Positions 1-29,390 of a stretch of DNA of 64,000 nt are shown one piece after another. Made by a program: the position numbers and the translations under genes. The stretch is taken from positions 310,001 through 374,000 of the forward strand of contig NZ_JACOGF010000003.1 of assembly GCF_014284335.1 (NCBI RefSeq), read 5' to 3'. The DNA is from Undibacterium hunanense (lineage in GTDB: Bacteria; Pseudomonadota; Gammaproteobacteria; Burkholderiales; Burkholderiaceae_D). Numbering within the stretch: position 1 is the stretch's first letter; every line of letters begins with the position of its first letter. The notes below the pieces were generated by a model. It did no database searches and was not told the DNA's origin. It saw nothing but the letters and a program-made list of their open reading frames with translations.

Positions 1-404
1 ATGGCTAGCACATCGCCAACATGTGCCTGTACCCTGACCACACCACGCGTAAGCTCCGGTTCAAATGCATCCAAACCGGCACCGGGTGCGGCTTCAAATG
101 CCTGAAAGATTGCTTCCCAACGCAGGTTCCGCAAAAATTCTGACTGGCGCAATAACAAGGTCTCGTCATTGCCAGGCTGCTTGCGTACCTGATCAAGCTC
201 CGCCCCCTGACCAGACTGCATCTGTGCGTGCTGTTCATCCAGACGGACACGCTCACCCTGCATGCCTTGCCAACCATGCCAGATCAGAATGGCCACACAT
301 AAAGCCAGCGACATCAATAAAAGAAAAGCCTGCACACCACGATTCCGCATATCCCAACGCCAAGGATTATTGTTCTCTGCAAAGTCGATTTGCACAGGTC
401 TCAT
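1..404 (-). CDS. PilN/GspM-like assembly protein, partial (runs off the window)
   Basis: The first 134 residues are visible. A short cytoplasmic N-terminus (MRPVQIDFAENN) is followed by one hydrophobic segment at about residues 25-45 (AFLLLMSLALCVAILIW) and then a charged, Gln-rich stretch of probable periplasmic coiled coil. This is the layout of PilN or GspM inner-membrane platform subunits. Its ATG overlaps the stop of the preceding PilM/GspL-like gene by four bases (ATGA), so the two are translationally coupled, as pilM-pilN usually are. Family assignment rests on topology and position in the gsp-like operon, not on a conserved motif. The C-terminus lies outside the window. Confidence 0.6.
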   Translation of the reverse strand, partial: MRPVQIDFAENNNPWRWDMRNRGVQAFLLLMSLALCVAILIWHGWQGMQGERVRLDEQHAQMQSGQGAELDQVRKQPGNDETLLLRQSEFLRNLRWEAIFQAFEAAPGAGLDAFEPELTRGVVRVQAHVGDVLA

Positions 405-1063
405 GCCGCAACTTCCCTTGGCAGCCAATGCAGCGGCCTGGCATCGCCGCTCCAGAATCTTTCTGTGGGCAATGGTGCCCCGAGTCTGAGCAACTCCAGT
501 GACAGCAGGGCATCCACATCCGCACAGCGCAATTGGCGTACCAGCCGCAATACACCTTCCTGCCAATACAGCAAAGTACTAACACCATCCCGCACAAAAC
601 ACCAGGCACCGGTTGGTGGCAAGCTTGCACATTGTTGTCGCCACATCACTACCAGTTGCGGCTGCAGACTGCGTAGCGCATACGCCTCCAGGGCCTGCAG
701 CAGGTTACGCGGCAATGCACAGGCCAGCATCGGCTCTCCCTTGTGCCAGTCCGCCTGTATCGTCCATTCAGCCGCCGGTTGTCCATACAAGTTCTCGAAG
801 CGGGCATTCAACAACAGAAAAGAATCATCCAGGCTGACAATTTCATCGGGCAGTTCCATTAAAAAATAACGTACCCAGCAATCTGCGACAACGACTACCA
901 AAGCAGCCTTTGTTGTCAGCAGGCCATGTAGTTCTTCACGCAAGGCTTGCCAGTCACCCGGCTTTGCAGTCAGTTTTTGTGGTGGACTGCCATCGGCACG
1001 AGCCAAGGATATTTCCTGCCCACCGATGTTTAAATAATTTTTTTCAACCCGCCAAAGTGACAC
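401..1063 (-). CDS. PilM/GspL-like protein of the pseudopilus platform
   Basis: A 220-residue soluble protein with no signal peptide or membrane segment. I see no sharp motif, but its position between the GspE ATPase and a PilN/GspM-like protein, and its alternating beta/alpha character (GKAALVVVVADCWVRYF-type strands), fit the actin-like cytoplasmic domain of PilM or GspL. That domain connects the ATPase to the inner-membrane platform. The start overlaps the end of gspE by 20 bases and the stop overlaps the next gene by four, so it sits inside one operon. It is shorter than typical PilM (about 350 residues), so it may be a reduced version. The function is inferred from context. Confidence 0.5.
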   Translation of the reverse strand: MSLWRVEKNYLNIGGQEISLARADGSPPQKLTAKPGDWQALREELHGLLTTKAALVVVVADCWVRYFLMELPDEIVSLDDSFLLLNARFENLYGQPAAEWTIQADWHKGEPMLACALPRNLLQALEAYALRSLQPQLVVMWRQQCASLPPTGAWCFVRDGVSTLLYWQEGVLRLVRQLRCADVDALLSLELLRLGAPLPTERFWSGDARPLHWLPREVAA

Positions 1064-2776: not shown

Positions 2777-3958
2777 TTATTGCAAAGTGCCCGCCAGATC
2801 AAAGATGGGCATATACAACAACACCACGATCAAACCGATCACGATACCTATCAGTGCCATCAATACCGGCTCAAATGTTTTGCTGAATTTTTCTATCCAG
2901 AGGGTCGTTTCGGCATCGTAGAAAAGCGCTGCCCGTGTCAGCATCAAACCCAGTTGCCCCGAATGCTCTCCCACCCGCAACATGCGCAGGGCGATCGGTG
3001 TCGTTAAACCATTTTTCTCAAACGCATCAGAAAAATTACCTCCCTGGACGATGCCATAGCGCGCTGCCGACAAAGCCCTGGCCCTGTGCGCAGACAAGGT
3101 GCCACCGACCATTTCCAGTGCATTGACAACCGCGATACCGCCTTCCAGTAACATGCCCAGGGTCAGGTACAGGCGTGCCAGTTCCAGAATATTCACGCGC
3201 TGCGAAATACCAGGCAAACGCGTCAGCATCAACATCAGACGCCCCGAGCGTTTTAGCCGGCGCCACCAGGCCAGCAAACAAAAGACGATGCCCACTGCAG
3301 CCAACAACAACCATTTTCCATGTGCCGCCACTAAAGCGCCCCAGGCAATCAGCCATTGCGACATCAGTGGCAATTCCCTGCCGCTACCCTGGTACACCAC
3401 AGAAAACCGGGGTACAACATAACCAAGCAAAAACATGCTGACCAGACCACCAACAATCAGCAATATCGCCGGGTAGATTGCCGCACTGACGATGCGGTTG
3501 CGAATGCCATTGATACGAACCTGATATTCGATATAACGCGACAAGGCCTGCGGCAAGTCGCTGGTGCGTTCCGCGGCTTTGACAATACCGATAAACAGAG
3601 GTGGAAAATGCTCAGGCTCGGCAGCAACAGCGACTGAAAACCGCAAGCCATCCCGCATGCGCAGCAGCAAACGGGCAACGATGTTTGCTGTCTCGCTTTG
3701 CGCATCTTTCTCGCCCAGGGCTTCCAGGCTTTCTATCAAGCCCAGCCCGGCCTGTAGCAATGCCAATAATTCCTGGGTAAACAAGATCAGCGAAAAATTT
3801 TTGCCGCGTTTTTGCACCTGCGCCGATAAGGGCCGCACATCCAGCACCGTCATCTGCCTGACCACGGCCGCACGCGATGCGCCATCAGCATCCATTGCTT
3901 CCAGCTCCAGCATATGCACGCGATTATCACGGCCTACTGCGCGAACGGCGTAACGCAT
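2777..3958 (-). CDS. gspF: Type II secretion inner-membrane protein GspF family
   Basis: A polytopic inner-membrane platform protein of 393 residues, the usual GspF/PilC length. Two repeated cytoplasmic T2SSF domains are visible (FTQELLALLQAGLGLIESLE near residue 65, and LARLYLTLGMLLEGGIAVVNALE near 260). Three hydrophobic segments follow the usual pattern: about 165-190, 215-235, and a C-terminal one near 365-385 (LIGIVIGLIVVLLYMPIF). The gene lies 27 bases after gspG and 80 bases before gspE in the same direction, consistent with a single operon. GspF anchors the GspE ATPase and the pseudopilus base. Nothing looks broken. Confidence 0.88.
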   Translation of the reverse strand: MRYAVRAVGRDNRVHMLELEAMDADGASRAAVVRQMTVLDVRPLSAQVQKRGKNFSLILFTQELLALLQAGLGLIESLEALGEKDAQSETANIVARLLLRMRDGLRFSVAVAAEPEHFPPLFIGIVKAAERTSDLPQALSRYIEYQVRINGIRNRIVSAAIYPAILLIVGGLVSMFLLGYVVPRFSVVYQGSGRELPLMSQWLIAWGALVAAHGKWLLLAAVGIVFCLLAWWRRLKRSGRLMLMLTRLPGISQRVNILELARLYLTLGMLLEGGIAVVNALEMVGGTLSAHRARALSAARYGIVQGGNFSDAFEKNGLTTPIALRMLRVGEHSGQLGLMLTRAALFYDAETTLWIEKFSKTFEPVLMALIGIVIGLIVVLLYMPIFDLAGTLQ

Positions 3959-3985: not shown

Positions 3986-4426
3986 TCAGTTACTGACATC
4001 TGCCGCTTCACCGGTACCACCGGCACGGCCATCTTCGCCCAGCGATGACAGGTCAAATTCCTTGCCATTACGCCCGGGAATACGGTAAATATAGGCATTG
4101 CCCCAGGGGTCCATGGGCAGCGCTTTTTGCAGATAAGGTCCATTCCAGCGAGCAACACCAACTGGTCTGACCAATAGTGCATTCAACCCGACATCGCCGT
4201 TTGGATAACGCCCTACATCCAGCCTGTAATTGTCCAGTGCCTTACTGAACGACTCGATCTGTGCCTTGGCAACTTTTTGCCGCGATTCGCCTACCTTGGA
4301 AAAATACTTGGGCCCGACATATGCGCTCAGCAAGCCAATAATGGCAATCACCACCAGTAATTCCAGCAGGGTAAAGCCTGAAATATGTGATGAATGCTGT
4401 CTGGGCTTGCGTGAATCATTTCTCAT
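3986..4426 (-). CDS. gspG: Major pseudopilin GspG
   Basis: A type IV pilin-like protein. A short basic leader ends in the prepilin peptidase site G/FTLLELLVV, followed by the conserved hydrophobic helix with Glu at +5. The C-terminal half carries the GspG signatures: an LDNYRLDVGRYP-type segment, a WNGPYLQK segment and the DPWGNAYIYRIPG segment, ending in a calcium-site-like SSLGEDGRAGG. The protein polymerises into the pseudopilus that drives secretion across the outer membrane. It is the first gene of a leftward operon with gspF and gspE. The start is uncertain: ATG at 4426 is used, but a GTG six bases further upstream lies closer to an AAGGA ribosome site and could be the true start. Confidence 0.92.
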   Translation of the reverse strand: MRNDSRKPRQHSSHISGFTLLELLVVIAIIGLLSAYVGPKYFSKVGESRQKVAKAQIESFSKALDNYRLDVGRYPNGDVGLNALLVRPVGVARWNGPYLQKALPMDPWGNAYIYRIPGRNGKEFDLSSLGEDGRAGGTGEAADVSN

Positions 4427-4432
4427 ATGCAC

Positions 4433-7688: not shown

Positions 7689-9239
7689 ATGAAATTTTCA
7701 GTCAAGATAGTCTTGTGTTCAGCCATACCTGCTTTATTGTTTGCAATAGGTTTAGCCACCTCCATTACCTCCCTGCTATCAACCCGTGCCCAGTTTGACA
7801 ACTACATTTCGACTGAACAGGCGCTGGAAAGAAACATCTCTGAAATGTATGCCCAGGGCCTGCAAATGGGCCAGGCACTCAGAAACGTCGTGCTGGACCC
7901 ATCCAACAAGAAAGGCGTTGATAATTTTCTGGCGGCACAAGTGGCCTACGACAAAGCCTTTGAACAGGCACAGAAAGTATCTGCAATAAATAACACGACA
8001 CAAAGCCTGGCAGAACTGCCCAAACTGAGAGCGATTCACGCCCAGACACAAGAAAAGATCGTCGCCATACTCAAAGAAAAAGGAGATGCAACGGTCGTAC
8101 TGAATGCAGAAGAAACCCCGGCCTGGAGAAACCTGCGTGGCGAATTGCTGAAGCAACGCGATGAAGCCGGCAAACGCTCTGCGCAAGAACATACCAACGT
8201 CAATGACAAGGTCAGTTTTGCCATCACCCTGTCAATCTGCCTGGCCGTGCTGGCCAGCCTGGTTGCCATCTTCCTGAACTTCTTTTGCCAAAAAACCTTG
8301 CACAAGGAACTTGGCGGCGACCCGGTCCAGGCCAGGGAAGCCCTGGCGAATATTGCCAAAGGCAATTTGTCCCAAAGCATAGACAACAATGCCAGTGACA
8401 GCAGCCTGATGGGCGTGCTGCAACAAATGCAGACCTCGCTGGAATCACTGGTCAACGGCGTACGCAGCTCTGCCACTGGCATCGCCCAGGCCACCGACGA
8501 AATTGCATCCGGCAGCATGGATTTGAGCAACCGCACTGAAAGTCAGGCCAGCTCACTGGAAGAAACAGCGGCCTCCATGGAAGAACTCAATTCCACCGTC
8601 AATCAAAATGCAGACAACGCCAGACTCGCCAATCAACTGGCAGCACAAGCGTCCGAAGTAGCCACACGCGGTGGTGCGGTAGTTGAACAAGTTGTTGGCA
8701 CCATGCGCGGCATCAATGAATCATCCAAAAAAATACAGGACATCATAGGCGTGATTGATGGCATCGCCTTCCAGACCAATATCCTGGCCCTGAATGCTGC
8801 AGTAGAAGCCGCCAGAGCCGGCGAACAAGGGCGCGGCTTTGCCGTCGTCGCTACCGAAGTACGATCCCTCGCCGGTCGCAGTGCCGATGCTGCCAAGGAA
8901 ATCAAATCCCTCATCAGCACCAGTGTTGAATCAGTAGAAAAAGGCTCCCAACTAGTGGACCTGGCTGGCACTACCATGAATGAAGTGGTTGGGTCCATCC
9001 GCAAAGTCAGCCAGATCGTCGCCGAAATCACCGCTTCCAGTTCAGAGCAATCCAGCGGCGTTGCACAGGTTGGCGAAGCCGTCACCCTGATGGACCAGAC
9101 CACACAACAAAACGCTGCACTGGTAGAGCAGATGGCCGCAGCCGCTGCCAGCCTGAACGAACAGTCCGGCGAACTGATGAGCGCCGTATCTGTCTTCAGG
9201 ACAAGGCAAAGTACGCCATTGCTGCGGCTGCAGGCTTAA
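7689..9239 (+). CDS. Methyl-accepting chemotaxis protein
   Basis: An inner-membrane chemoreceptor of 516 residues. The first membrane helix is at about 5-28, followed by a four-helix-bundle type periplasmic domain with the [15 protein letters not shown] segment, a second helix at about 178-200, a HAMP-like linker and a long signalling coiled coil. The hairpin tip that binds CheA and CheW is intact near residues 355-385 ([18 protein letters not shown] followed by GRGFAVVA). Glu/Gln-rich methylation helices surround it ([16 protein letters not shown]). It starts after a good AGGAG site. The C-terminus lacks a CheR-docking pentapeptide. It is monocistronic and convergent with the LysE-type gene. 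The ligand is unknown. Confidence 0.93.
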
Positions 9240-9258
9240 AATACAGTGCGGTGCTGCC

Positions 9259-9870
9259 CTACTTAATCAACGGCAAGGCAGCGCCGATAAAAACAAACAG
9301 CGTTCCACATGTACGGTTGAAACGTTTCTGCCCCCGTTCCAGCCACGGCCGGATGTAATGCGCCAGCCTTGCCAGTAAATACTCCACCAGAAATTCAATG
9401 ACCGCAAAGGTCACCGTCATGACGACAAACTGTGGCAACAGTGCACGCTGCATATCAATAAACTGTGGAAGAAAAGCACCGTAAAACAGCAGCACCTTCG
9501 GGTTCGCTATCGCCGTCAACAAGCCCAGACGAAACAAACTGATGCCACGTTTAGCCCCTGCGCTTTCTTTTGGCGCCAGATGAAGTGCAGGCGCACGCCA
9601 TAACTGTATGCCAAGCCAGACCAAGTAAATTCCCCCTGCCAGTTTCAGCACCAGTAAAGCGCTGGACGATGCTTGCAGTATTGCCCCCAGGCCAAACATC
9701 GACAAGGCAATCAGGCAGGTAAAACCCACCACACCACCAACGACGGTATAGGTAGCCTTTCTTGCCCCATACAAGGCACCATGTGTCATGGCAAGCAATC
9801 CATTCGGCCCCGGTGTAAGCGACAAGCCCAATACTGCGATAGCGTAAATAATCCAGGTATGCAAAGCCAT
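9259..9870 (-). CDS. LysE/RhtB-family amino-acid exporter
   Basis: A 203-residue integral membrane protein with about six hydrophobic helices and the family's N-terminal signature SLTPGPNGLLAM. The motif ANPKVLLFYGAFLPQF in the second half is also typical. Members export amino acids or derivatives such as threonine and homoserine from the cytoplasm. The ATG was chosen for AGGAG with seven-base spacing; an upstream in-frame start would add an unlikely polar leader. It is divergent from a GlxA-type AraC regulator 111 bases away, the usual arrangement for a regulator and the exporter it controls. The substrate cannot be deduced. Confidence 0.88.
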   Translation of the reverse strand: MALHTWIIYAIAVLGLSLTPGPNGLLAMTHGALYGARKATYTVVGGVVGFTCLIALSMFGLGAILQASSSALLVLKLAGGIYLVWLGIQLWRAPALHLAPKESAGAKRGISLFRLGLLTAIANPKVLLFYGAFLPQFIDMQRALLPQFVVMTVTFAVIEFLVEYLLARLAHYIRPWLERGQKRFNRTCGTLFVFIGAALPLIK

Positions 9871-18837: not shown

Positions 18838-21462
18838 ATGTATCTTTGTAAGCCATCGAGTGATAAAAGGTTCACTGGGCAAAGCTTGTTGCAAGTCTTG
18901 TCGAGAAAAATTTCAATACTCTTCCGCAATGCTTTATTGATGGTTAGTATTTTGGGTTGTTTGTTTCTCGGCACCCAAGCACAAGCGCAATCGTCTACCG
19001 CCCCTTTGGTGGATGAAGGATGGTATTTTGGTGAAACAAAGTATTCCACTGAGGCAGCTCTTGCCACGTTTTTATGCACAGGCTCTTACTATGATGGCGT
19101 AGTCGGTGCGCTTAAGAATATCGAGTACCTGGAAACGCCAACCGACGATGATCCACATAAGGGATTCAAATATTTTTGTAATCATCAAATGTCAGACAGA
19201 GTTGTTGTCACTGAACATTTGAATGGACAACCTTATGTTTACAGTTGCCCAGGCAATACCACTTACAATAAAAAAGTCAGGGCTTGTATTTGCCAGGCCC
19301 CCAATTATCGCTACTTTGCAAAAGTGGGTTACTGCATGGGAGTTATGCCCCAACCTGACACACCTGAGCCACCACCCGACGATTGTCCAAGTTGTGGCAA
19401 CCCAATTGTTATTGCGACCGGCGCAAAAATACAAAAAGAGCCAGATTTTACTGCTATCCATGCTGGCGAACTAGCTTTCACTCGCTTTTACGACAGCAAC
19501 CCAAACAAACCTGACTCTGTTGCAATTCATGGCTTTGGGATGAAATGGATGCATACCTACGAATCGCAGATCCAGCCAGAAGCAGCATTGGCGCTCAACC
19601 AAACACGTTCAAAATGCAATGTGTCAGCAGATTATAAGTTTTATTTTTGCGAAAACAATCTTCCGACAAGCGCAACAGCTATCCCTGACGCCATCTCTGT
19701 CACCAGAGCACGCGGCAACAAAATCTTCTTTGCCCGCAACGGCAATAACTGGCAAAGCGATCTCAACACCAATGACCGCCTCGTTGCTCAGTACAATACA
19801 GATAGCACTGCCATTACTGGCTGGACGTTTACCAATAGCTCGTCTGATGATGTTGAGCAGTATGATGCAAAAGGCCGGCTGATTTCCATCACCAAAAGAA
19901 ATGGTGTTGTCCAAAAACTGACATATAGTGACGGCACCACCAACGATACCAGCGTCGCACGTCTTCCAGTTGATGCGCCTGCCTGTACAAAAACGAGTGC
20001 CGGAGCAGTTTTGGCGCGTGGCAAATTGCTGTGCGTGACTGATAACTGGAATCATCAGATGAATTTTGCTTATGACGCCAAAGGTCGTATCAACAGCGTC
20101 ATCGATGCTGCCGGTGGCCAGTATCAGTATGCCTATGATGGTGCGACGGGTGGTTGCAATACCGATCCGAACAGCTACGCCTGCGCGGCCAATAACCTCA
20201 CATCTGTCACCTACCCGGATAACAAAACACGTTCTTACGTTTATAACGAAGCGAGCAACATCAATGGCGGCACAGCTTGCCCCTATGGTTCACCAGTTGG
20301 CAGCGGCCTGGGAACATTACCCAATGCACTGACTGGCATCATTGATGAAAATGGCAAGCGTTATGCGAGCTGGACGTATGATTGCTATGGACGCGCAACA
20401 TCGTCCGAGCATGCCGGTGGCGTAGAAAAAGTCGCATTGACCTATGGTGATCCTGACGCAAACGGTTCTAAAGCCACAACGGTGGACACCTACCTGGGGA
20501 CAACTACGAATCCACAAAAAGTATCAAATACTTTCCAGTTCAAGGCATTGCTGAATACCATAAGTCATACGGCACTTAATCAGCCATGTATCAACTGCGA
20601 CAACACCAGCAATAAAACCTACGATGCCAATGGAAATCTGTCGCGCAAGACAGATTTCAATGGAACAATTACTACTTACGAGTACAACCTTAGCCGTAAT
20701 CTCGAAACCAAGCGCGTTGAAGCAAGCGATACAGCACAAGCACAAACGACAACTACGACCTGGCATGCAAGCTACCGCCTGCCTATGCAAGTCAACGCTC
20801 CCCTATTACGTACAAGCTATACGTACGACAGCAAAGGGAATGTACTGACAAAGATAGAACAAGCCACCAGTGACGCTGATGGAAGCCAGGGCGCAAGCGC
20901 AGTGACTACAGGCAGTCCTCGCACCTGGACCTACACCTACAATAATGCTGGTCAGGTTTTAAGCATCAAAGGTCCACGTACCGATGTACTTGATAAAACC
21001 ACCTATATCTACGATACCCAAGGCAATCTGACCAGCATCACGAATGCGGCCGGTCATGTCACCACCCTGGGCAACTACGACGGCAATGGTCGTGCAGGTC
21101 AAATCACCGATGCCAACGGTATTGTCAGCACCCTGACGTATACCCCGCGTGGCTGGCTCAAGAAAAAAGTCACCAACGTTGACGGCATCAGTGAAACAAC
21201 CAGCTTTGACTATGACAACGTCGGCCAGATGACTACGATCACATTGCCAGACAATAGCAGCATCAGCTACAGCTTTGACGACGCACACCGCCTGACCAGG
21301 ATCAGCGACAACTTGGGTAACAGCATCAACTACACATTAGACAATATGGGTAACCGCATTAACGAAACCGTGACCGACAGCAGCGGTCGTTTGACACGCC
21401 AGATCAGCCGCAGCTTTGATGTTCTCGGCCACCTGCAAAAGATCACCGGAGGCGCCCAATGA
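18838..21462 (+). CDS. Secreted RHS/YD-repeat protein, N-terminal module (part 1 of 3)
   Basis: An 874-residue exported protein. A long signal peptide ends near residue 50 (LGTQAQAQS). Next is a Cys-containing N-terminal region (about 52-185), then a DUF6531-type RHS entry segment (SCGNPIVIATGAKIQKEPDF from about 185), and from about 350 onward many YD repeats such as YDAKGRINSVIDAAGGQYQY, forming the beta-cocoon shell. It ends abruptly in a repeat (SFDVLGHLQKITGGAQ) with no RHS core and no toxin tip. Its stop overlaps the start of the next YD-repeat gene by four bases (ATGA), so they are coupled. In ordinary RHS proteins these parts are one polypeptide. The start is the first ATG with a weak GGA upstream; a shorter start at the MVSILGCLF codon would give a conventional signal peptide. 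Confidence 0.85.
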   Translation: MYLCKPSSDKRFTGQSLLQVLSRKISILFRNALLMVSILGCLFLGTQAQAQSSTAPLVDEGWYFGETKYSTEAALATFLCTGSYYDGVVGALKNIEYLETPTDDDPHKGFKYFCNHQMSDRVVVTEHLNGQPYVYSCPGNTTYNKKVRACICQAPNYRYFAKVGYCMGVMPQPDTPEPPPDDCPSCGNPIVIATGAKIQKEPDFTAIHAGELAFTRFYDSNPNKPDSVAIHGFGMKWMHTYESQIQPEAALALNQTRSKCNVSADYKFYFCENNLPTSATAIPDAISVTRARGNKIFFARNGNNWQSDLNTNDRLVAQYNTDSTAITGWTFTNSSSDDVEQYDAKGRLISITKRNGVVQKLTYSDGTTNDTSVARLPVDAPACTKTSAGAVLARGKLLCVTDNWNHQMNFAYDAKGRINSVIDAAGGQYQYAYDGATGGCNTDPNSYACAANNLTSVTYPDNKTRSYVYNEASNINGGTACPYGSPVGSGLGTLPNALTGIIDENGKRYASWTYDCYGRATSSEHAGGVEKVALTYGDPDANGSKATTVDTYLGTTTNPQKVSNTFQFKALLNTISHTALNQPCINCDNTSNKTYDANGNLSRKTDFNGTITTYEYNLSRNLETKRVEASDTAQAQTTTTTWHASYRLPMQVNAPLLRTSYTYDSKGNVLTKIEQATSDADGSQGASAVTTGSPRTWTYTYNNAGQVLSIKGPRTDVLDKTTYIYDTQGNLTSITNAAGHVTTLGNYDGNGRAGQITDANGIVSTLTYTPRGWLKKKVTNVDGISETTSFDYDNVGQMTTITLPDNSSISYSFDDAHRLTRISDNLGNSINYTLDNMGNRINETVTDSSGRLTRQISRSFDVLGHLQKITGGAQ

Positions 21463-22868
21463 AACACCTCTTCAAACCAAGCCTATTGACACTGGCGCTA
21501 GCCAGCCTTGCCGGCGTTAGTCATGCCCAGTCCGCCGTCTATCAATACGAATACGACCAAATGGGTAATGTTACTAAAGTCACCAATGCCCTCAATGCAG
21601 CGACTGTACAAAGTTACGACCCACTCAGCCGTGTGCAAACGCAGACCGATCCTAACAACAAAGTCACCAGCTACACTTATGACGGACAAAACCGCCTCAT
21701 TAAAGTGACGGATGCGCGCAATCTTTCTACGCTATATAGTATCGATGGTTTAGGCAACCAATTAAGCCTCACCAGCCCGGATACAGGCGTCACCGCCACA
21801 ACGGTGGATGCTGCCGGCAATATCCTGACCAGGACCGATGCCAAGGGTCAGACTACCCGTTATACCTATGACGTACTCAACCGTATCACCAGCATCAGCT
21901 ATCAAGACGGCAGCAGCACTACCTACACTTATGATCAAGGCAATTACGCCAAAGGCCGCCTGAGCCAGATCAGCTACCAGAATGGCAGCATTGCCTACAC
22001 TTATAATGGTCGTGGTCAAATCCTGACTGATACGCGTCTCATCAACAATGTCACTAACGTGACCCGCTACCAGTATGACAATACCGGACGCCTGAGCAGT
22101 CTTACCTATCCTAATGGCCGCCAGATCAGCTATACCCGCGACAGCCTGGGCCGCGTCACCCAGATTGACACCAGCAAAGGCGGTATCACGACCACCATCC
22201 TGAGCCAGGCAACATACCAGCCCTTTGGCGGCATACAAAGCTACCGCAACAGCGCCGGACAAAACTACACCCGCACCTATGACAATGATCAGCGGGTTGC
22301 CAGCTACGTCCTTAACAATGCGGTGCAGGCCATCACCTATGATGCAGCCAACCGCATCACTTCCATCAATGAAGTCAACAACCCCAACCGACAAATCGGC
22401 TACGGCTTTGACAACCTTGATCGATTAACCAGCTACCAGACACCGCAGGTCAGCCAAAGCTTCACGTATGACGCCGTTGGCAATCGCAGCACCAAGACCA
22501 CAGGCACAGCCAATACCAGCTACACCTATGCCAGCACCAGCAATCGCCTGACCCAGGTGACCGATAGCCAAAACACCGCGATTGCCATGGACCCGAATGG
22601 CAGTATCACCAATAATGGTGCAGCGCAGTTCAACTATGACAGCCGCGGCCGCATGATGTCTGCCACTACCAGCATAGGTAATGTGCAATATGTGGTCAAT
22701 GCCCTGGGCCAGCGCGTGCAAAAGAACGCTCCTGCCAATGGCAGTAATCCAGCTACCAGCACCGTGTATCACTATGACCTGGGTGGCAAGATCATCAGCG
22801 AACGCACAGGCCAGAATGATGTTGATTACATCTACCTCGACAACATCCCTGTGGCTGTGATTCAGTAG
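21459..22868 (+). CDS. Secreted RHS/YD-repeat protein, middle module (part 2 of 3)
   Basis: A 469-residue protein with its own classical signal peptide (KHLFKPSLLTLALASLAG, then VSHAQ cleavage at about 24) followed immediately by YD repeats (YQYEYDQMGNVTKVTNA onward) to the end. The last residues, YIYLDNIPVAVIQ, correspond to the segment that in normal RHS proteins directly precedes the HTDxLGTPR-type core; here a stop codon follows. The core sequence reappears only in the next gene. Start overlap with the preceding gene (ATGA) indicates co-translation. It has no enzymatic domain; its role is structural, as shell wall. A separate signal peptide in the middle of an RHS shell is very unusual. 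Confidence 0.85.
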   Translation: MKHLFKPSLLTLALASLAGVSHAQSAVYQYEYDQMGNVTKVTNALNAATVQSYDPLSRVQTQTDPNNKVTSYTYDGQNRLIKVTDARNLSTLYSIDGLGNQLSLTSPDTGVTATTVDAAGNILTRTDAKGQTTRYTYDVLNRITSISYQDGSSTTYTYDQGNYAKGRLSQISYQNGSIAYTYNGRGQILTDTRLINNVTNVTRYQYDNTGRLSSLTYPNGRQISYTRDSLGRVTQIDTSKGGITTTILSQATYQPFGGIQSYRNSAGQNYTRTYDNDQRVASYVLNNAVQAITYDAANRITSINEVNNPNRQIGYGFDNLDRLTSYQTPQVSQSFTYDAVGNRSTKTTGTANTSYTYASTSNRLTQVTDSQNTAIAMDPNGSITNNGAAQFNYDSRGRMMSATTSIGNVQYVVNALGQRVQKNAPANGSNPATSTVYHYDLGGKIISERTGQNDVDYIYLDNIPVAVIQ

Positions 22869-22876
22869 AGCCTGCC

Positions 22877-25369
22877 ATGCATCCAATTCAGCTAACTGAC
22901 GTCCAAAACAAACAACAAAAATACACTATGTCGACCATTCAACAGACATTGCGCACCCGCTACACCATGGTGTTCGCTGCACTGATCAGCGCCGCTGGTT
23001 TCTGGTGTGCAGCACCTTCCGCCCAGGCCCAGGCCCAGGTTACAACAGGCAGCGTCTTCAACGTCTTCACCGGCGGCAAGATCACCCTGGGTGACACCAG
23101 CAACACGCAGGCATTCTGCAACCCCGGCTTTTATGACAGCTCCAAACTCAATGTGCTGGCCTCCAACCTGCTGGGCACCACCCAGTGCAAGAATGCTGCC
23201 AGCACCACACCGACAACGACTGCCTTGGTCACCGCCAGCGGCGGCAATGCCAGCCGCATAACTTTGCCTGCGTTTCAAAGTACCACCAACCCATTGGATG
23301 TGAACTATGCCAATGGTGCGCAAGTGCTAGTCAATAACGGCAGCACCAGCAACACCATCAATGGCGATAGTCAACTTGCTGTTACCAGTACCAGCCCTGG
23401 CACGGGCGGGACCAGCCAGACCCTGACCCTCAAAACCCAGGCAGGTGTGCTTAATCTGCCTGCCGGCGAATACGCCAAGGTCAACCTGCAAGTAAACAAG
23501 GTACTGCACTTCCAGGCTGGTGCCGTACCGACCCGCATCAAACAACTAAACCTGTCCAACTGCAATGGCACGTCCATGGAGTTTGAACCGGGTGATTACT
23601 ACATAGAAAACGCCAGTTGGCAGCAAAGCTGCCACCTCAAAGTAGCGACTGCTACAAACGGTAACGCTAACACCAGCGTCAAGCTCTACTTCAAGAATGC
23701 CTTCAACCTCGGAAGTGGCCCCACCTGCTGGAACATCAGTGGCGGCACCACGTGCGGTAACAGCATGACACCCGCCCAGATCGCCAACCAGACCCCCGAC
23801 AAGCTCAAGGTCTACCTCTACAGCGGCAACTTCACCACCGCACAGGGTGCACAAATAGCCGCCGGTATCTATGTGGACCAGGGCGATATCAGCCTGACAG
23901 TCGCAAACAACTTCGTCTTCACAGGCGATCTGTTCGCCAACAACATCAACATCACCAATGGCGGGCCAACCAGTCTGCTGTACAAACCGGTGTTCACCAG
24001 CATCATTTCACCGGCGAACAGTACACTGCCAAATATCAGCCTGGCGCAGCCAGCACCACAAGCCAACGGCAACTTCATTGCACCCGCAGCCGTAACCCTG
24101 ATGGCCACAGCCACACCGGCGACAGGTAGCGGCAACACAATCAGCCAGATACAGTTCTATCAGGGCAGTACGCTACTGGGTACGGCCACGGCACCAACAA
24201 CAGCCAACGGCGACAACTACAGTGTCAACTGGAACAACGTAGCAGCCAACAGCTATAGCGTGACGGCCAAGGCAACAGATAACAAGAACAACACGGCAAG
24301 CAGTACGCCAATCACAATCAACGTCATCAACAACACGCCACCGACGATCAGTTTGACAGCTAGCCCGGCCAATGCAACTACACCAGCCACCATCATCCTG
24401 AACGCCACAGCGACGGACTCGGATGGGACAGTAGCCAAGGTTGAATTCTTCAACGGAACAACCAGCATTGCCAATGTTACGCAGGCACCGTTCACCACAA
24501 ACTGGACGAACGTGGCAGCAGGCATTTACAGCATCACGGCCAAGGCGACGGATAATCTGGGCGCAAGCACGACATCAGCACCGGCACCAGTAACCGTGAC
24601 GGCGTATCAGCCCAAGGTCTATGATATTTATACAGACCAGATTGATACACCACGTGTCATCACGGATACGAACGGTAACGAAGTCTGGCGCTGGGATAGT
24701 GCGCCATTTGGAGAAACACTCCCGAACGAGCAGCCTACCCAGGCCACAAGCAAGTTCAGATTCAACTTCCGGTTTCCGGGACAATACTACGATAGTGAAA
24801 CCAATCTACACTACAATTACTTCAGGGATTATGATCCGCAGGCGGGTAGGTATGTGGAGTCTGATCCGATTGGACTCAATGGTGGTATCAATACTTACAC
24901 GTATGTGAATGGCAGGCCATTTGCCATGCGTGACCGATTTGGATTGGCTGGTGAGATTTCTGGCGGCTACTCTTTAGGTCTCACATTAGTTACAGGCACA
25001 GGTCAGGGATACACACTTGGATTTGATCTCAATGGTGCAATTGCCTTCAGTGAAAATGGTGCTATCACTATCTCGGTAAACTTGACTAATATAACAGACG
25101 CAAAAGGTGCATATGCTGGAGTGGGACAGGCGATTGGCGGAGGCATCGGAGACATGGCGAACAACGGATTTGACATGTCAACATCTGATTGGGTTGGCGC
25201 AAGCGCGGGATGGGGAAAGAGCGTGGGCGTCTCGGCAAATATTGGGCCCGGAGGTATCAGCGCTTCCAAAGGCGCGTTTAAAAAAGGGGCTGGTTTTGGG
25301 GGATTCTTTGGACAAGGTAAAACACGAACTTTATCGTGGACCATCAACGGATGTATTCCAAAAAAATAA
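22877..25369 (+). CDS. Secreted Ig-like/RHS-core protein with C-terminal toxin-like tip (part 3 of 3)
   Basis: An 830-residue protein. The signal peptide ends near 52 (APSAQAQA). Residues 55-375 form a Thr/Asn-rich probable beta-helix or surface-polymer domain, 380-485 and 486-577 are two Ig-like (Big_9-type) domains, and 579-690 is the RHS core: IYTDQIDTPRVITDTNGNEV, WRWDSAPFG, then YDPQAGRYVESDPIGL and a closing MRDRFGL. The final 140 residues are a variable Gly/Ala-rich tip (IGGGIGDMANNGFDMS, KKGAGFGGFFGQGK) without a known nuclease motif. In canonical RHS proteins the tip after this core is the toxin. An AT-rich membrane-protein gene follows 83 bases later and is the likely immunity gene. 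An in-frame ATG 17 codons downstream would give a shorter signal peptide. Confidence 0.85.
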   Translation: MHPIQLTDVQNKQQKYTMSTIQQTLRTRYTMVFAALISAAGFWCAAPSAQAQAQVTTGSVFNVFTGGKITLGDTSNTQAFCNPGFYDSSKLNVLASNLLGTTQCKNAASTTPTTTALVTASGGNASRITLPAFQSTTNPLDVNYANGAQVLVNNGSTSNTINGDSQLAVTSTSPGTGGTSQTLTLKTQAGVLNLPAGEYAKVNLQVNKVLHFQAGAVPTRIKQLNLSNCNGTSMEFEPGDYYIENASWQQSCHLKVATATNGNANTSVKLYFKNAFNLGSGPTCWNISGGTTCGNSMTPAQIANQTPDKLKVYLYSGNFTTAQGAQIAAGIYVDQGDISLTVANNFVFTGDLFANNINITNGGPTSLLYKPVFTSIISPANSTLPNISLAQPAPQANGNFIAPAAVTLMATATPATGSGNTISQIQFYQGSTLLGTATAPTTANGDNYSVNWNNVAANSYSVTAKATDNKNNTASSTPITINVINNTPPTISLTASPANATTPATIILNATATDSDGTVAKVEFFNGTTSIANVTQAPFTTNWTNVAAGIYSITAKATDNLGASTTSAPAPVTVTAYQPKVYDIYTDQIDTPRVITDTNGNEVWRWDSAPFGETLPNEQPTQATSKFRFNFRFPGQYYDSETNLHYNYFRDYDPQAGRYVESDPIGLNGGINTYTYVNGRPFAMRDRFGLAGEISGGYSLGLTLVTGTGQGYTLGFDLNGAIAFSENGAITISVNLTNITDAKGAYAGVGQAIGGGIGDMANNGFDMSTSDWVGASAGWGKSVGVSANIGPGGISASKGAFKKGAGFGGFFGQGKTRTLSWTINGCIPKK

Positions 25370-28809: not shown

Positions 28810-29390
28810 CCTCCTTAAAAGCTCTCTATCTCGGCGATACAAACATCACATCGCTTCAATCGCTTGATAAGCTAACCTCCTTAGAGAATCTCGATCTCAC
28901 CAAGACGGGAATCACATCCCTTCCATCGCTAGATAAGCTAACAGCCTTAAAGACTCTCAAACTCACCAAGACGAGAATCACATCCCTTCCATCGCTGGAT
29001 AAGCTAACCTCCTTAAAAGAACTCTCTCTAACCTCTTCAAAAATCACATCCCTTCCATCGCTGGATAAACTAACAGCCCTAAATACTCTCTATCTCGGCG
29101 ATACACAAATCAAGTTGCTTCCATCGCTGGATAAGCTAACAGCCTTAAATACTCTCTACCTCGGCTTTTCACAAATCACATTACTTCCATCACTGGATAA
29201 GCTAACCGCGTTAGATTCCCTCGATCTCAGCAATTCACAAATCACGTCGCTTCCATCACTAGAAAAGCTAATCTCTTTAGAAAGAGTTGAGCTTAATGGC
29301 TCACAACTCGTCGGAGTATCGCCATCGGAAAATAAAAAAATCTTCTTGGCTTATCAACTCAAATACCGGAAGATCAAAATTTCTATATAA
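28794..29390 (+). pseudogene. 5'-truncated SDS22-like leucine-rich-repeat gene
   Basis: One frame is open for 198 codons and encodes seven complete and one partial 22-residue leucine-rich repeats of the form SLPSLDKLTALNTLYLGDTQIT, then a C-terminal cap (GVSPSENKKIFLAYQLKYRK). The 22-residue length and pattern fit the SDS22/internalin class, which forms a curved protein-binding solenoid. There is no start codon in frame until TTG at 29115, inside the repeats; the 5' end has been replaced by the IS21 remnant, and a stop codon in this frame immediately precedes the repeats. The 66-base repeats are nearly identical in places (SLPSLDKLT), implying recent duplication. Its original function is unknown. 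Confidence 0.7.

Follow-up and report, generated by a model that had tools for sequence, protein, structure and literature searches.

RHS toxin shells divided among neighbouring genes in Undibacterium hunanense and related bacteria

In Undibacterium hunanense, RHS/YD repeats and an Rhs-associated core are both present but spread over three chains, which are encoded by adjacent open frames on the plus strand of the window (the whole stretch of 64,000 nucleotides that was analysed). The first of the two breaks stands at the same site in three further sets of this genome and recurs across the family. We consider it probable that such sets specify a polymorphic toxin exported through Sec, with two or three neighbouring chains joining non-covalently to form its RHS shell.

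The three-gene set and its paralogues

The order of the genes, the motifs quoted by an earlier note on this DNA and the ATGA overlap are all present in the frames and in the Pfam and NCBIfam assignments, which place DUF6531 and RHS repeats in the first gene, RHS repeats only in the second, and a Big_7 Ig domain with Rhs_assc_core in the third. The features are as follows.

18838..21462, plus strand: P1 (part 1), 874 aa, corresponding to the N-terminal half of the RHS shell; a signal peptide and a variable region lead into the DUF6531 entry domain (aa 187-248) and YD repeats, from Pfam/NCBIfam and an alignment of 8 homologues
21459..22868, plus strand: P2 (part 2), 469 aa, corresponding to the other half of the wall as far as the core; apart from its signal-peptide-like start it consists of YD repeats
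22877..25369, plus strand: P3 (part 3), 830 aa, signal peptide, beta-rich region, two Ig domains, RHS core and variable tip
23039..24010, plus strand: beta-rich N-terminal region of P3, aa 55-378
24086..24541, plus strand: two bacterial Ig-like domains of P3, Big_3_5-like (aa 404-483, below cut-off) and Big_7 (aa 489-555)
24704..24946, plus strand: RHS repeat-associated core of P3, TIGR03696, aa 610-690
24947..25366, plus strand: variable C-terminal tip of P3, presumed toxin, 140 aa
25453..25992, plus strand: putative immunity gene, 179 aa, with three hydrophobic TM-like segments, 83 nt downstream of P3
401..4432, minus strand: end of a T2SS/T4P-like operon, 14.4 kb upstream of the set and divergent from it; a candidate exporter, a weak link in the window
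401-1063, 1044-2735, 2777-3958 and 3986-4432, minus strand: operon genes PilM-like, GspE, GspF and GspG (Pfam T2SSE, T2SSF, T2SSG)

The stop of P1 and the start of P2 share the letters ATGA, and P3 starts 8 nt past the stop of P2. The first ATGs of genes 1 and 3 give long n-regions, so that internal starts are possible. In P3 about 520 residues, comprising the beta-rich region and the two Ig domains, separate the signal peptide from the core. The beta-rich region found no match in Pfam or in a PDB sequence search, and some P3 homologues carry Ig arrays in its place; its identity as an MshQ-like pilus protein was considered and dropped, both searches being empty and the structural model poor. 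An autoproteolysis-like motif, DPIGL...DRFGL, spans the end of the P3 core and presumably has the corresponding role; the pattern used for this motif fits 73 of the 104 cores of the chosen loci. Further along, the window holds a short ORF at 29115-29390 with leucine-rich-repeat-like text (LPSLDKLTAL...).

The source genome (6.28 Mb, 108 contigs) contains four such sets: one in the window, a pair on contig C11 and a fourth on C21. Each has P1 parted from P2 at the homologous site, with a 4-nt ATGA overlap, and a P3 behind them; identities to the window set are 47-52% for P1, 53-74% for P2 and 60-70% for P3. The earlier note had allowed that parts 1 and 2 might turn out to be stand-alone proteins apart from part 3. 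In this genome they are not: all four P1 matches at E 1e-10 sit in sets, with none outside, and so do its four strong P2 matches. P2 also hits five other places weakly (E 1e-11 to 1e-14): P1 genes account for two of these, and two distant RHS frames, on C14 (2040 aa) and at the end of C43, for the remaining three.

The beta-rich regions of the two P3 paralogues on C11 (L009:7826-10273, L010:7458-10031) are equal in 218 of 222 aligned residues and their flanks differ, which looks as if produced by gene conversion. Orphan P3 pieces are found downstream of the C21 set at L011:7333-7863 and 8940-9392, with small genes between them; they comprise an Ig domain with part of the core, and a signal peptide with the start of the beta-rich region. 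Orphan pieces of Ig and core also occur in other genomes of the genus, and resemble the displaced tips that occur at other rhs loci. Transposase-like genes, of the RAYT type by their look, lie near two of the sets (L009:6056-6793, L011:2736-3194).

Break sites and occurrence in related genomes

P3 is found in 7 of 60 genomes, the source genome counted, every one in the genus Undibacterium. A P2 profile matches 55 of 392 family genomes at E 1e-50, the source genome again counted; the scan scored at most four candidates per genome, and numbers of sets per genome are lower bounds (the Collimonas locus L058 was missed). The surroundings of 97 places were fetched and classed with three HMMs built from the P1 repeats, P2 and the core, giving 96 family loci. 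The three-gene order that the earlier note had proposed to look for elsewhere occupies 21 of these, in 14 genomes, a count that includes L131, whose P2 is without its last quarter, and L124, whose P2 frame has a foreign tail. At 32 loci, in 21 genomes, P1 is followed by P2 and core in one gene, and 28 loci, in 23 genomes, are single chains. The rest are one locus with P1 and P2 joined and the core separate (L198, probably broken) and 14 that contig ends truncate, that are unclear or that lack a P2 call. Altogether the first break, between P1 and P2, occurs in 36 of the 392 family genomes including the source genome; 14 of the 36 also split before the core, and 9 also hold a single chain. The architecture analysis took in 115 chosen loci, from which duplicates and short extracts of the same places had been left out. 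A classed P2 is present in 112; L174 and L175 gave none, and L197 has no P2 call.

The form with P1 and P2 joined and the core separate also occurs outside the family (L200, L203). A plasmid of Massilia violaceinigra carries a two-gene case, whose annotation gives a DUF6531 protein and, after it, an RHS core protein; a plasmid search with P3 found 1129 records, none matching over 80% of the query, and the best 20 of the 1129 match its core or Ig part. Of 35 matches that a class-wide sample of 369 genomes gave beyond the source genome, 34 lie in frames of at least 1069 aa, and given such long frames elsewhere in the class an unbroken P1-P2 wall is probably ancestral. Among six class-level loci inspected, L220 plainly has P1, P2 and core in one frame; L221, L223 and L224 have no full core in the frame (two of them reach contig ends), and L222 is unclear. 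The sixth, L219:2609-8885 (G1028), is split elsewhere: its break falls inside the P1 repeats, the first half is present twice in tandem, and the last gene opens with a signal-peptide-like stretch, which suggests an independent split. On a quick tree of P2, built from 105 rows covering more than 90% of the model and with 36 of 102 inner branches weak, the first break needs at least six changes and the second at least seven, at defined sites, gain and loss being indistinguishable from the count; alignment A4 shows 89 of these rows, 16 being left out.

The break sites themselves are precise. At 57 first breaks, start and stop overlap by 4 nt in 46 cases and by 1 nt in 3 (49 of 57 overlapping). 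P1 ends in TG..Q in 40 of 57 and has TG within its last six residues in 50 of 57, and P2 opens with a signal-peptide-like stretch, then the next repeat. For the second break, the distance between the stop and the chosen start ranges from -4 to 609 nt. The placing of the breaks at repeat boundaries by the earlier note is supported. In close single chains the corresponding junction is a short linker, mostly of 5-11 residues (15 in L184, 19 in L067); in a distant group of single chains of about 1400 aa the P1 model ends 45-63 residues earlier. The further statement of the earlier note, that LDxxPVAV text directly precedes HTDxLGTPR text in ordinary RHS chains, stands for the close fused homologues, where PVAV text comes shortly before TDHLxTPR text and 3-20 residues separate the model end from the core start (139 in L151); the distant group is without the PVAV text.

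That each new chain brings its own signal-peptide-like start was also proposed earlier, and agrees with a simple rule of our own (distinct from SignalP) that looks for a basic start, a hydrophobic stretch and an AXA-like site. The rule accepts 54 of 57 P2 and 20 of 23 P3 chains and, in a strict form applied at the overlapping start only, 47 of 49 P2 chains of all chosen loci. P1 passes from some start in 85 of 96 cases, split and single-chain forms pooled. As controls, 146 of 7820 internal RHS stretches pass, as do 98 of 506 unrelated frames, some of which surely have true signal peptides.

Since the same first break is present in four paralogous sets and in 36 of 392 genomes, it is neither chance nor a sequencing slip, and the earlier judgement that these are not simple frameshifts is upheld. 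Slippage would be possible at such short overlaps, and an assembly error, a programmed frameshift or read-through might in principle yield one chain in vivo. The signal-peptide-like stretch that nearly always lies between the halves, in many genomes, and the wide range of starts at the second break make this exceedingly improbable, and with four paralogous sets and 36 genomes we reject frameshift or assembly error. Could the sets instead be single-chain rhs genes broken by mutation and decaying, with coincidental signal peptides? RHS genes are prone to rearrangement, some copies are indeed broken, and orphan fragments lie beside the C21 set. Part 1 is in two frames in L036, part 2 is short in L131 and has an internal stop in L140, and L042 and L173 are almost without a tip, so that part of the pool is decaying. 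Decay as the general explanation is nevertheless quite unlikely, because the same break, overlapping start and signal-peptide-like sequence are repeated in dozens of loci, and because of the recurrent TG..Q ending of P1.

Relations among the parts and to known shells

Do the separate chains belong to a single structure? Pairwise distances of P1 and P2 are correlated with r 0.61 over 56 split loci (0.72 in 18 three-gene and 0.77 in 32 two-gene loci), against 0.89 for the same measure in 34 single chains. In 50 split loci r is 0.72 between P2 and core and 0.50 between P1 and core, and -0.04 between P2 and tip; the tip thus varies independently of the shell. Shared descent of neighbours also yields such correlations, which therefore show co-inheritance rather than contact. 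Parts 1 and 2 are therefore co-inherited with part 3, a point on which the earlier note had called for a comparison with single-chain homologues. Two-gene forms share the break sites.

P1, P2 and the core align to successive stretches of solved single-chain shells; on RhsP (8h8a) P1 aligns from residue 133, P2 to 770-960 and the core to 1051-1140. The AlphaFold2 model of P2 (pLDDT 92.4) is a row of beta hairpins, which Foldseek matches to T6SS Rhs shells with a best E of 6e-26 and TM-scores by query of 0.29-0.69 (best 14 matches), and to TcC or TcB-TcC chains with TM-scores by query of 0.63-0.76. The P3 model is poor (pLDDT 60.8) except in the Ig domains.

A different reading of the same genes is that the exported chains form no common shell, with P3 acting by itself as a toxin, secreted or on the surface, and the other two serving as accessory or binding proteins. 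P3 is itself large, and P3-like pieces with Ig, core and tip occur in two genomes (G001, G029) where no P2 match was found. Yet P1, P2 and core are consecutive pieces of single chains and diverge together, and P2 and core form one chain in the 32 two-gene sets; we regard separate functions as unlikely, and favour a common shell.

An RHS shell made from more than one chain has a precedent. In the accessible text of PMC5851990 and PMC11435725, TcB-TcC is described as one YD/RHS shell from two polypeptides, with the core and variable toxin tip on the second. At the level of genes the shell is split in the sets described here too, and their chains may assemble alike; the P2 model matches TcC and the TcB-TcC fusion. 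The sets differ in the number of chains, two or three against two in Tc, and in the signal-peptide-like start that every chain carries, and the place of the break also seems different: position 28 of the P2 profile aligns to residue 148 of RHS2/TcC, so that a TcC start would be about 120 residues earlier than that of P2, repeat alignments being able to slip by one repeat. Tc toxins have SpvB and propeller parts in their B component and a TcA translocator; no SpvB or beta-propeller domain was reported by Pfam in seven P1 proteins scanned.

With the T6SS Rhs effectors (RhsA, RhsP, Tse5, Tse15, Tre23) the sets share shell repeats and fold, the RHS core and a tip behind it, whereas the solved effector shells are each one chain and T6SS-delivered, and the sheath gene was not found in the source genome. 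The 'T2SS/Sec-dependent' class of RHS polymorphic toxins (Zhang 2012) combines a signal peptide, RHS repeats and polymorphic tips, according to the accessible text of PMC3482391, which makes no mention of a multi-gene split shell. Signal-peptide-like starts (by our rule), RHS repeats and polymorphic tips are all found here. Bacterial teneurin-like proteins have, in the accessible text of PMC13018210, a YD shell, variable adhesion domains and a polymorphic toxic C-terminus with an immunity gene, some also having a signal peptide. They are one chain, and their FN-plug and NHL domains were not reported in the chains scanned here. The open-access literature, largely as titles and abstract starts, yielded no description of RHS shells split into separately exported chains. 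We place the split sets among the RHS polymorphic toxins, as a variant that may work like TcB-TcC without being a Tc toxin.

Proposed export and possibly interchangeable parts

By what route would the chains leave the cell? The earlier note had suggested that delivery need not be tied to type VI secretion, and for the source genome this holds: TssC, the T6SS sheath protein, found no match there by two models. Hydrophobic N-termini serve as transmembrane segments in PAAR-Rhs effectors, and the signal-peptide-like starts might be the same in a cytoplasmic, T6SS-delivered shell; TssC is indeed present in 10 of 17 tested genomes with split sets. The source genome with its four sets and six others are, however, without a TssC match, and no PAAR or VgrG domain was reported by Pfam in the seven P1 proteins scanned. 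T6SS delivery is thus rejected for the source genome and may apply in others, and as an explanation of the sets it seems very unlikely.

GspD of the T2SS scores over the cut-off in all 17 tested genomes with split sets. The T2SS/T4P-like operon comprises GspG-F-E, PilM/N/O/P-like proteins, a secretin with a C-terminal cohesin domain and three pseudopilins; Pfam backs GspE, F, G, the secretin, cohesin, PilO and one pseudopilin, PilN falls below the cut-off, and the PilM-like and PilP-like proteins are named by look. At the C21 set the operon immediately precedes P1, with 0.26 kb between them and both on one strand, and in G422 and G599 it is divergent from the split set at about 0.2 kb. It stands between two split sets in Collimonas (L216; the sets are L058 and L140, and P2 of L140 has an internal stop) and 6.6 kb from the set in Duganella aquatilis (L054, G604). 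In Pseudothauera (L052) it directly precedes P1+P2, with no core found nearby, and in G297 (L207) it directly follows P2+core. Besides the window, the operon with its cohesin-bearing secretin was noted at L213:1350-11103 and in L214, L215 and L216. About 0.35 neighbourhoods would be expected by chance, against six counted in the family set (C21, the window, G422, G599, G503, G604), a rough sum made after seeing the cases for 57 loci, 15 kb on each side and about 1.3 clusters per 6.4 Mb. At least two operon genes lie within 5.5 kb of 3 of 66 loci with any split, 2 of 12 unclear loci and 0 of 34 single chains, and most split loci have no T2SS-like neighbour in the fetched stretch (mostly 5 kb on each side). 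The secretin occurs in at least 209 of 392 family genomes and is so common that its presence alone says nothing on the operon as exporter. We do not claim the operon as the dedicated exporter; that it serves beside several sets as the export machine stays a lead.

The tips are diverse. Of 57 tips, 55 were scanned with Pfam at E 0.001, and at most 16 match a family, known toxin families among them: Ntox37 (2), Ntox33, Ntox22, Ntox24, DUF4329, HNH families, Tlde1, YkuD, M91, ADP-ribosyltransferase-type families such as Scabin-like, and DUF1843. The 140-aa window tip has no Pfam match, and the 179-aa gene downstream of it may, by its position, be the immunity gene.

We infer a course in which all three chains would enter the Sec pathway and meet in the periplasm: P1 with the entry domain and the front half of the wall, P2 with the other half, and P3 with the closing core and the tip. 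There the open beta-sheet edges at the two breaks would pair, and one shell would close non-covalently around the tip, which the core, by analogy with other Rhs proteins, would probably free by autoproteolysis. Anchoring or aiming the particle is probably the task of the Ig and beta-rich modules of P3, together with the variable P1 N-terminus. The T2SS or the neighbouring T2SS-like system are candidates for release through the outer membrane, and the targets would be other bacteria.

Some loci carry more than one first half. In Collimonas humicola (L058:1-11573) four P1 genes follow one another with 4-nt overlaps before a single P2-core gene, and L140, L122 and L133 have two P1 genes in front of P2; tandem P1 genes occur in 3 of 57 family split loci, 52 of which had more than 1 kb fetched upstream. 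Within these four arrays, identity between the P1 copies falls from 71-95% in the C-terminal halves (88-95% in L058) to 38-62% in the middles and 22-40% at the N-termini. A constant docking half with a variable front would suit caps that can be exchanged on a single toxin chain; the pattern might also have arisen through gene conversion of the C-terminal half. We tentatively entertain the broader idea that the split makes the RHS toxin combinatorial at both ends, with a constant P1/P2 docking face, alternative cap chains of polymorphic N-terminus, a separately exchanged tip and exit of the assembled particle from the periplasm via the T2SS-like machine found beside several sets.

If the halves are exported separately, the cage could be built outside the cytoplasm from parts, the toxin would be kept from its wall until after export, and caps and cargo could be swapped independently. 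The passage of a large RHS toxin through Sec, and its closing around its own cargo, would then become testable with shorter proteins. The recurrence of the divided sets in related bacteria suggests that toxin shells can be assembled from separate, swappable parts.
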